Of a DNA stretch of 64,000 bases, positions 57,907-59,584 are shown one piece after another (positions within the stretch are counted from its first letter, which is position 1; each line of letters opens with the position of its first letter). The translations under genes were made by a program, and so were the position numbers. The DNA lies in NCBI RefSeq assembly GCF_900107215.1, contig NZ_FNPD01000002.1, positions 1-64,000 of the forward strand. The letters run 5' to 3'. A model generated the notes under the pieces. It worked only from the letters and a program-made list of their open reading frames with translations, was not told the origin of the DNA and made no database searches. Source of the stretch: Acetomicrobium thermoterrenum DSM 13490. GTDB lineage: Bacteria; Synergistota; Synergistia; Synergistales; Acetomicrobiaceae.

Positions 57907-59166
57907 CTAGCCTTTTTGGTTTGAGCTTATAGGCTCTTTTTCTGAAGAGGCCTCACATTGGTATGCGGGCTTTTTTGACCCATGGACCTGTTTCCACGTC
58001 ACAACGGGCAACCCCCAAATGTTTATGAAGCCTACAGCAGCAGAGTGATCGAAGCTATCTCCCGTCGAATAGGTGGCTAGATCGTCAACGTAGAGAGAAT
58101 TGGGGGATTTAAGGCCAACTACCGTGCTTTGCCCCTTATACAACCTAACCCTTACGACTCCATTGACGACCTTTTGCGCCTGATTGAAGAAGGCGTCTAA
58201 CGCATCCTTTAGGGGAGAAAACCAATAGCCCACGTAAGCCAGCTCGGCGTATTTCAATTCCAGGTCAGCCTTAGCAGCTATTACATCCTTCGCCAGGGTC
58301 ATCTTCTCCAATGCCTTTTTGGCCTGAAGCAACACGACAGGCGCCGGACATTCATACACTTCCCTGCTCTTAAATCCCACAAGCCTGTCTTCGATCATAT
58401 CTATTCGTCCCACTCCATGTTTACCGGCTATCTCGTTCAGCTTAGCGATCAGAGCAACGCCGTCCATCTCCTCGCCGTTCAGGGCCACAGGCAGGCCTTC
58501 TTTGAAGGTTATCTCCACGTATTCCACTTCATCAGGAGCATCCCAGGGATCCGCTGTGAGCTTAAAGGCATCGGACGGCGGTTCTGTCCAGGGATCCTCA
58601 AGAGGACCGCATTCGATGGAACGTCCCCATAAGTTCTCGTCAATGCTGTAGGGGCTTTTCTTTGTGACGGGAACGGGGATTCCATGTTCTTTGGCGTAAT
58701 CTATCTCGTCATCCCGGGAGAAGTGCCAATCCCTTACGGGTGCCAAGACCTTCAAATCCGGCTTTAATGCCCTGGTACAAACTTCTATGCGGACCTGGTC
58801 TTGACCCTTTCCCGTGCAACCGTGTGCAACGGCGACAGCTCCCTCGATCTCAGCGATTTTTGCCAAATACTTGGATATCAGAGGCCTAGAAAGCGCTGAC
58901 GTCAAGGGATACGTTCCCTGATACATGGCGTTAGCCTTCAGAGCAGGCCACACGAAATCCTGGACAAACTCCTCCTTGAGATCCATAACATAGGCATTAC
59001 AAGCACCGGTCAGAAGAGCCCTCTCCTTGCAGGCCTCCAAATCGACTACCTGTCCGACGTCTGCAGTAAAGGTTACGACATCATATCCTTGATCCATGAG
59101 CCACTTTATAGCGACTGAAGTATCGAGCCCTCCACTATAAGCTAAAACCACTTTACCTTTATACAT
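57907..59166 (-). CDS. argG: Argininosuccinate synthase
   Basis: 419 residues. It joins citrulline and aspartate with ATP. Blocks: KVVLAYSGGLDTSVAIKWLM (ATP loop), YPLTSALSRPLISKYL, HGCTGKGQDQVRIE, and SPYSIDENLWGRSIECGPLE. The C-terminal tail (about 20 residues after KPAYQCEASSEK) is unconserved. AGGAGGAATTG lies ahead of the start, and a T-box leader of about 360 bases lies further upstream. Only argG of the arginine pathway is here. It is convergent with the radical SAM gene, seven bases apart. Confidence 0.97.
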   Translation of the reverse strand: MYKGKVVLAYSGGLDTSVAIKWLMDQGYDVVTFTADVGQVVDLEACKERALLTGACNAYVMDLKEEFVQDFVWPALKANAMYQGTYPLTSALSRPLISKYLAKIAEIEGAVAVAHGCTGKGQDQVRIEVCTRALKPDLKVLAPVRDWHFSRDDEIDYAKEHGIPVPVTKKSPYSIDENLWGRSIECGPLEDPWTEPPSDAFKLTADPWDAPDEVEYVEITFKEGLPVALNGEEMDGVALIAKLNEIAGKHGVGRIDMIEDRLVGFKSREVYECPAPVVLLQAKKALEKMTLAKDVIAAKADLELKYAELAYVGYWFSPLKDALDAFFNQAQKVVNGVVRVRLYKGQSTVVGLKSPNSLYVDDLATYSTGDSFDHSAAVGFINIWGLPVVTWKQVHGSKKPAYQCEASSEKEPISSNQKG

Positions 59167-59194: not shown

Positions 59195-59560
59195 CATAAA
59201 TAAAAAAGGCCCGTCCCACTTAAGGGACGAGCCTTTAATTGCCCGCGGTGCCACCCTTTTTGGCTAGGACCTTTAGGTCCTGCCCTCTTGCCGGCCTTTT
59301 GTCGGAGGCCACCCGAGTTCCTACTTGGTTTTAACCTTTCTTCGGAACTGGCTCGGGGACTCTCTTCGATCCGGCTTCACTCGAGGAACGCTCTCAGCTT
59401 ATGCATCCCCTCTCTGTCGACGAGCACAGACCTACTCTTCCCCTCATCGCCCTAATATCGGACAACTGAGCGGAACAAGGTCTTATACGTCTAGCTCGTC
59501 TTATTCGAAGAGATGCCAACATCAATACTCCACGCTCCTTAGTGAACTTTAGGTTAGTTA
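59195..59560 (-). promoter_or_regulatory. T-box riboswitch controlling argG
   Basis: The minus strand carries the T-box core AGGGTGGCACCGCGG (59257-59243), followed by the terminator stem AAAGGCTCGTCCC / GGGACGGGCCTTT (59236-59205) with a T run. Upstream are the stem I marks: a GATGAGGGGAAGAGTA segment (5' specifier-loop side), AGAGAG, and a GAGTCCCC closing strand at about 59359. The specifier may be CGA (Arg) in the GATCGAAGAGAG segment, which would suit argG, but I could only place it by eye. T-box RNAs bind uncharged tRNA and prevent termination. Confidence 0.9.
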
Positions 59561-59567
59561 ACCAAAT

Positions 59568-59584
59568 ATTATAAGATTTGTCAA
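59568..59584 (-). promoter_or_regulatory. Probable argG T-box promoter
   Basis: TTGACA on the minus strand (59584-59579) and TATAAT (59573-59568) are both present but only five bases apart, so they belong to two alternatives: TTGACA with a weak TTAACT 17 bases downstream, or TATAAT with TTGAGG 15 bases upstream. The T-box leader follows directly. Confidence 0.45.

Follow-up and report, generated by a model that had tools for sequence, protein, structure and literature searches.

The general view is that T-boxes work independently of the ribosome and leader-peptide attenuators by means of it. In the his, trp, and thr attenuators, the ribosome chooses between an antiterminator and a terminator. 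In the at operon of Bacillus subtilis, a leader peptide reportedly acts in addition to a T-box, as Chen and Yanofsky are said to have found in 2003 and 2004; this peptide is rich in the same amino acid that its T-box senses, is encoded 3' of the T-box terminator, and controls the start of rtpA translation. An excerpt of PMC11255114 places the at operon (rtpA/yczA, anti-TRAP) under T-box control. Leader peptides substitute for T-boxes at hisS in different species, according to the available part of PMC2965389, and the available text of a T-box review notes T-boxes in tandem as well as insertions without an assigned function (PMC7583486). Among the matches listed, the open-access literature contained neither a leader peptide upstream of a T-box nor an anti-stem-I strand; a mention in Vitreschak 2008 or Gutierrez-Preciado 2009 is possible. 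The main text of the review PMC7583486, as available, has no word that starts with "peptide," the accessible portions of PMC7778990 and PMC2494555 do not contain "leader peptide," and those of PMC9413887, PMC8632094, PMC1262725, and PMC8346122 likewise describe no upstream leader peptide or anti-stem-I strand.

Here, we analyze the leader of argG in Acetomicrobium thermoterrenum DSM 13490, within a stretch of 64,000 nucleotides (contig NZ_FNPD01000002.1, positions 1 to 64,000), referred to below as the window. Like other RF00230 T-boxes, this leader has a stem I with specifier and distal motifs, stem III, the core, a UGGN bulge, a terminator, and an amino-acid gene downstream; unlike them, it adds an upstream open reading frame (ORF) with a strand complementary to stem I. 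It shares with the his, trp, and thr attenuators a short ORF, a run of cognate codons, and exclusive pairings that would be set by ribosome position, but in the window the ribosome would choose whether the tRNA-reading domain forms, and the T-box would then decide termination. The at operon, which also joins a T-box to a leader peptide, is the closest precedent, but in the window the leader peptide precedes the T-box and, by prediction, governs how the sensor arm of the T-box folds. As in the hisS exchange, both sensor types serve one gene family; at hisS, however, one replaces the other, whereas at argG both are found in one leader.

A transcriptional T-box precedes argG

The covariance model aligned positions 1 to 219 of RF00230 to the minus strand of the window at 59456-59220 with 88.2 bits; the E value was 5.9e-20 when the genome was searched and 6.8e-20 in a local scan. 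The score is below the Rfam gathering score of 93, so that a default scan gives no hit at all. An E value of 6e-20 rules out a chance or misplaced T-box. The elements of the T-box and its gene are as follows.

59220..59456, minus strand: whole RF00230 match (covariance model)
59350..59452, minus strand: stem I, with k-turn GAUGA/GA, specifier loop AGAGUA/GAAGAGAG, and distal motifs ACAGAGA and GCUGA
59450 to about 59412, minus strand: strand 2, the 5' strand of stem I
3' side of stem I (59350..59452), minus strand: strand 3
59361..59363, minus strand: specifier codon AGA (Arg), then G (register of the covariance model, as in related leaders)
59250..59253, minus strand: UGGC in the bulge of the antiterminator, the complement of the GCCA terminus of tRNA-Arg(UCU)
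59205..59236, minus strand: intrinsic terminator hairpin, 13 pairs and a T tail (terminator scan)
57907..59166, minus strand: argG, argininosuccinate synthase, the regulated gene (homology)

Stem I carries the AGUA/GAA specifier-loop motif, and the T-box core reads AGGGUGGCACCGCGG. The UGGC of the bulge can pair with the GCCA end of the tRNA-Arg(UCU) of the same genome; the five Arg tRNAs read have this same GCCA end, so the bulge fits arginine but singles out no isoacceptor. Two relatives, L090 and L091, have a UGGU bulge instead, which would be a G-U fit to the tRNA end if their tRNA is the same. The terminator scan found one site in the leader (shuffles average 0.6), and in the RF00230 alignment this terminator (59236-59205) and the antiterminator have the strand CUCGUCCC in common. 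The encoded ArgG is 99% identical to that of Acetomicrobium hydrogeniformans. Judged from its sequence, the locus is confirmed as a genuine transcriptional T-box before argG, with tRNA binding and readthrough predicted. A preliminary description of this DNA had proposed such a T-box within 59195-59584, and both proposals held: stem I, core, and terminator are present behind a covariance score of 88.2 bits, and the interval is about right, 59584 being the first base of the -35 box described below.

The same description read the T-box as likely arginine specific, with a possible CGA specifier. The amino acid stands and the codon does not; in the covariance-model register the specifier is AGA, at 59363-59361, so arginine and no other amino acid. 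The CGA at 59368-59366 is out of register, and an Arg codon occupies the register in all 72 argG T-boxes of the comparison below. Following the Rfam alignment, we took as specifier the triplet at -9 to -7 ahead of GAG on the lower strand of the k-turn; this rule gave 66 of the 72, and the other six, where it failed, were read by eye (L105, L214, L216, L196, L197, and L219). The codons are AGA in 36, CGC in 28, CGT in 5, and CGG in 3. A codon that changes while the amino acid stays is our best evidence that the predicted specifier is the correct one.

T-box specifiers show a strong preference for C at the third position, according to the available text of PMC7583486. The AGA specifier, found in 36 of the 72 argG T-boxes, the window included, ends in A, contrary to this preference, and the stem II contacts that underlie the third-position rule may differ in these T-boxes.

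T-boxes are ordinary in Synergistota

The preliminary description also pointed to a host with Gram-negative features, in which a T-box would be unusual. The first point agrees with the Synergistota lineage of the genome, a phylum described as Gram-negative in the title of PMC9318921, and a Firmicute host is excluded by ArgG homology together with that lineage. The second did not survive a wider search: RF00230 was matched at E ≤ 0.001 in 133 of the 185 Synergistota genomes searched, which makes a T-box an ordinary finding there. Only 47 of the 133 exceed the gathering score, and Synergistota T-boxes are probably under-annotated. In the available part of PMC12452182, riboswitches are described as notably enriched in Synergistota. 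The taxonomic surprise is thus mild, and the main interest lies in an apparent leader-peptide gate over many genera.

The search of the genome itself, which the preliminary description had suggested, gave three RF00230 matches in total. The top-scoring one (109.1 bits; C1:23259-23487, L001/L082) is a threonine T-box with an ACC specifier and a UGGA bulge; the genes after it we take, from the look of their proteins, to be thrC-thrB-lysC-asd. A promoter-like TTGACA lies just 5' of its stem I, and no leader ORF was found at this T-box. The third match (C3:223688-223936, L003/L083) probably reads lysine, its codon being AAA or AAG as judged from pairing, in an unsure register; its specifier loop deviates from the usual AGUA/GAA motif, and the cluster behind it is presumably dapA-dapB-dapD-lysC, named likewise from the proteins. 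The tRNA ends fit all three T-boxes: UGGC/GCCA for Arg, UGGA/UCCA for Thr, and UGGU/ACCA for Lys.

Elsewhere in the phylum, arginine T-boxes with CGG and UGGC precede an apparent carA in family f11 (L070, L074, and L236), where argG is also under a short CGG T-box (L213 to L215). Six further T-boxes (L054, L060, L061, L063, L228, and L234) precede an apparent AMP-forming ligase; the specifier rule gives ACA then U at these loci, and one base earlier UAC then A, so they may be tyrosine T-boxes. A strict pattern for the T-box core found none in the DNA stretches retrieved for argG homologues from other phyla (L034 to L049, L051, and L052).

Long argG leaders carry an arginine-rich ORF

ArgG was detected at E ≤ 1e-60 in 165 of the 185 Synergistota genomes, and 104 argG upstream regions were examined (30, plus 74 of 80 further stretches). 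A core was recognized by pattern in 72. The 32 regions without one, genus g16 among others, were set aside before any counting; a divergent T-box may be present in some, and the genome of one dropped region, L151, has an RF00230 match just upstream of argG. The 72 leaders were divided by whether the predicted transcription start lies within 24 nt of stem I. The ORFs had been looked at once before this split was set; the counts of ORFs, complementarity, swap tests, and folding competition came later. In 16 "short" leaders, the predicted start falls at -11 to -24 from stem I, too close to accommodate an ORF. Among the 56 "long" leaders, a promoter pattern matches at -76 to -112 in 45, only at -174 in L219, and nowhere in 10, which include the five-member genus of the window. 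The upstream part of the window leader is made up as follows.

59579..59584, minus strand: -35 box TTGACA (by eye; paired with TTAACT across a 17-nt spacer)
59556..59561, minus strand: -10 box TTAACT, weak (by eye; under the promoter-scan threshold)
59535..59540, minus strand: Shine-Dalgarno site AAGGAG of the leader ORF (sequence reading)
59394..59525, minus strand: leader ORF, 43 codons from TTG at 59525 (42 from ATG at 59522)
59481..59507, minus strand: arginine cluster CGA ATA AGA CGA GCT AGA CGT ATA AGA, six Arg codons in nine
59461..59517, minus strand: strand 1, the anti-stem-I segment of the leader ORF, whose complementarity takes in the 5' strand of stem I and runs slightly past it

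The -35/-10 pair of the window was not found by the promoter pattern or the promoter scan. A relative, L016, keeps the pair as TTGACA-17-TTAAAT but loses a nearby TATAAT. Transcription is predicted to start at about 59549, about -99 from stem I. The ORF, which like its complementarity to stem I is absent from the preliminary description, would encode (M/L)MLASLRIRRARRIRPCSAQLSDIRAMRGRVGLCSSTERGCIS and ends within stem I at a TGA (59396-59394).

Reading by eye, we found an arginine-rich frame, preceded by a ribosome site and beginning at a start codon, upstream of stem I in 12 of 13 argG T-box leaders from named genomes, L031 being the one without. A procedure was then applied to all leaders that asked for a start codon at -112 to -37, a lax Shine-Dalgarno-like site, and an ORF reaching at least -12; an ORF with all of these is present in 55 of the 56 long leaders. 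At least four Arg in the 12 residues before stem I occur in 49 of 56, against 2.9% of 3,360 dinucleotide-shuffled leaders, and at least three in 55 of 56, against 7.8%. The same procedure found an arginine-rich ORF in none of the 16 short leaders. Starts lie between -62 and -78 in 54 of 55 (L112 is read from -110 by the procedure), and in 53 of 56 leaders the stop codon of the best ORF falls at +7 to +90 of stem I, a figure to be read with the required reach to -12. By genus, 24 of the 27 with long leaders have the arginine-rich ORF; g39, g40, and g48 are without. The weak fits are L218, which lacks both the ORF and the pairing of strands 1 and 2, and L197 and L198, whose ORFs are weak. Synonymous differences between relatives in the arginine region amount to 48 of 162 in frame, compared with 14 of 141 and 28 of 157 when the two alternative frames are read; the sequence pairs are related rather than independent, and the test moderately favors coding. 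The leader thus has the traits of a leader peptide gene, in that a Shine-Dalgarno-like site precedes a short ORF containing a run of cognate codons, and it is putatively translated.

A leader ORF as a general feature of T-boxes is ruled out for Synergistota. Of 37 non-argG T-boxes in the phylum, none has an ORF rich in the residue of its own specifier and 36 have no qualifying ORF at all, with the caveat that the rule probably misreads the specifiers of a few of these loci, e.g., L003, L079, and L246. The 37 are 41 further loci minus three without a core (L059, L240, and L241) and L238, which proved to be an argG leader with an AGA specifier and the ORF; L059 also precedes argG. The arginine T-boxes before the apparent carA (L070, L074, and L236) have no such ORF.

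Arg codons were listed for 52 of the 56 long leaders (omitting L190, L197, L198, and L218) and average 5.8 per leader. All 27 leaders with an AGA specifier hold two or three AGA codons, whereas among the 25 with CGC or CGT specifiers, in which CGA dominates, AGA codons number none in 14, one in 9, and two in 2; this tracking mostly follows one clade. Within family f3, a genus with a CGC specifier uses CGG CGA CGA CGA CGA CGA (AGA, 0 of 6), while in sister genera with AGA specifiers AGA makes up 2 of 5 and 3 of 7 Arg codons. Inosine at the first anticodon position reads CGU, CGC, and CGA. Genome G134, with a CGC specifier, has a tRNA-Arg with anticodon ACG (30 of 50 tRNA loci examined), so one tRNA, its anticodon modified to inosine, could serve both the specifier and the leader codons. 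No ACG anticodon was found in genome G018, from the CGC genus of f3, among 30 of 41 loci, where CCG, CCU, UCG, and UCU were read. In five genes of the window, AGG is the commonest Arg codon (36 of 87, with AGA 17 and CGA 6), so overall codon usage does not by itself explain the leader codons.

The leader is complementary to its own stem I

In the window, the duplex of strand 1 with stem I is predicted at -35.3 kcal/mol (z -3.7). Measured against shuffled leaders, the complementarity between leader and 5' strand of stem I has a mean z of -2.6 in the 56 long leaders and -0.5 in the 16 short ones. As a guard against effects of composition, every leader was paired with every stem I across the 27 genera; own pairs averaged -33.7 and foreign pairs -28.5 kcal/mol, and none of 20,000 permutations reached the own mean; with the 72 nt before stem I, the values were -31.7 and -27.4, again with 0 of 20,000. 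Reversed leaders had no preference for their own stem in this test (4,035 of 20,000). The stretch before the promoter gave a slight own-genome excess (845 of 20,000), so composition adds a little to the effect. Both halves of the leader contribute, the arginine half with 19 of 20,000 and the other half with 33; reversal of the non-arginine half left no contribution (2,715 of 20,000). In the nine short-class genera, own pairs averaged -18.5 and foreign pairs -17.6.

The preference is uneven. The own leader ranks within the best five in 17 of 27 genera. Poor ranks out of 27 are held by L218 (26th), L092 (21st), and L113 (18th), whose own leaders are worse than the average foreign one, as, slightly, is that of L202; in L152, L096, L198, and L203, own and foreign are about equal.

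Covariation was scored with structures each derived from one row of the alignment being tested. In alignment A1 (25 of the 27 AGA-group leaders, from families f1 to f4, f9, and f10, with two near-identical sequences omitted), the pairs of strands 1 and 2 of the window are possible in 69.9% of cells, against 34 to 55% for slid structures and 68.1% for shuffled alignments (0 of 500). Compensatory cells number 31 against 20.8 shuffled (4 of 500), and pairs changed on both sides show no excess (10 against 11.4; 421 of 500). In A2 (15 sequences), pairs are possible in 78.9% of cells, with 14 compensatory cells against 8.0 (3 of 500) and 8 pairs changed on both sides against 5.5 (39 of 500); in A3 (8 sequences), two-sided changes number 2 against 1.3 (187 of 500). 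RNAalifold on sequence-based alignments yielded little (-2.6 and -9.8), in our opinion because shifting pairings are probably out of register in the alignments. The covariation is modest, and it supports pairing of strands 1 and 2 without proving each helix.

Predicted folding switches with ribosome position

All folding used nearest-neighbor energies at 37°C and left the k-turn and loop-E contacts that stabilize stem I uncounted; Acetomicrobium is thermophilic. The window hairpin formed by the leader and the 5' strand of stem I (59524-59409) is predicted at -45.9 kcal/mol (z -4.6; 0 of 200 shuffles), compared with -31.4 (z -0.6) for stem I alone, and it persists when the whole of stem I, with strand 3, is included. 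In free RNA, strand 1 is the preferred partner of strand 2, ahead of strand 3, in 52 of the 56 long leaders. We then withheld bases as a ribosome would. With everything upstream of -29 withheld, which corresponds to an A site at the median arginine codon (-42) and a ribosome edge assumed to lie about 13 nt ahead, strand 3 wins in 41 of 56, and the other 15 fail to regain stem I as the main partner; with the edge at -21, strand 3 wins in 54 of 56. Counted by genus, the three conditions (free, -29, and -21) give 25, 22, and 26 of 27. The terminator begins about 210 nt downstream of where stem I starts. The computed folds point to mutually exclusive pairings that ribosome position could switch. 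Such a leader would work like an attenuator yet lies outside the classical class, because the competing helix is stem I of a T-box and not a terminator or antiterminator.

Two proposed arginine sensors in series

We conclude that argG is probably under two arginine sensors in series, a leader-peptide attenuator that gates a T-box. This model draws on sequence comparison and folding, by which the T-box, its specificity, the conservation of the ORF, the complementarity, and the predicted competition were computed. Translation of the ORF, ribosome stalling, the order of events, and the gating of tRNA reading we infer as follows. The first sensor, about 100 nt upstream, would be the ribosome site, start codon, and short ORF dense in arginine codons; the second would be the T-box, in which stem I reads tRNA-Arg through AGA and an uncharged GCCA end on the UGGC bulge holds the antiterminator. 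In free nascent RNA, strands 1 and 2 would fold together, stem I would not form, no tRNA would be read, and transcription would terminate. With charged tRNA-Arg scarce, a ribosome would stall on the arginine codons and cover strand 1, releasing strand 2 to strand 3; their pairing would form stem I, which could then capture uncharged tRNA-Arg. With charged tRNA-Arg plentiful, the ribosome would continue and stop within stem I, so that stem I would be blocked in this state too. Expression of argG would then require both slow arginine decoding and uncharged tRNA-Arg. On balance we lean toward a two-step AND gate of this kind, in which the leader's coding strand prevents the tRNA-reading arm from folding until the stalled ribosome releases it, setting decoding speed against charging of the same isoacceptor. 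The design was probably gained or lost through a shift of promoter.

Other readings of the same leader are less probable. The likeliest of them, in itself improbable, is that translation of the leader merely opens the pairing of strands 1 and 2 at any arginine level, leaving the T-box alone to sense arginine and coupling argG to translation in general. A ribosome over strand 1 is indeed predicted to open this pairing, and the stop codons lie within stem I; the arginine richness of the ORF (5.8 Arg codons per leader) and the change of codons linked to the specifier would, however, be needless for an opener.

That the locus is an ordinary arginine T-box, whose ORF and complementarity arose as by-products, either of a longer 5' end or of common motifs, seems to us quite unlikely. 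The core is complete on its own, 16 argG T-boxes of the phylum do without a leader ORF, and the ORF or the pairing is missing in some long leaders (L218 and L198). By-products would nevertheless hardly place the ORF in 49 of 56 leaders against 2.9% of shuffles, start it between -62 and -78 in 54 of 55, or make own pairing exceed swapped pairing in every one of 20,000 permutations while reversed leaders show no such effect. A 5' hairpin for mRNA stability or processing, with the ORF a small protein in its own right, is very unlikely: the hairpin predicted in the window is strong, but the leader pairs in it with the T-box sensor strand, the C-terminal part of the peptide is dictated by T-box motifs, and the stop drifts from +7 to +90. 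Least credible is a nascent peptide that arrests the ribosome on free arginine rather than through codon decoding, for although an RRxRRIRP-like stretch recurs in several families, the peptide varies (RRRRRGR, RRRSG, RRDRC, and others) with arginine density alone in common, and the specifier is tracked by arginine codons, not by a fixed peptide.

If the sensors-in-series model is true, the ribosome decides whether a T-box reads its tRNA, and RNA sensors would be layered into logic gates. It would also explain the 100-nt extension that is unique to argG among the T-box genes of the phylum examined here. The co-change of specifier and leader codons between AGA and CGN makes the choice of isoacceptor testable by comparison, and the 16 argG T-boxes that lack the extension provide natural controls. 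The argG leader would offer a natural system in which the contribution of each sensor can be measured.
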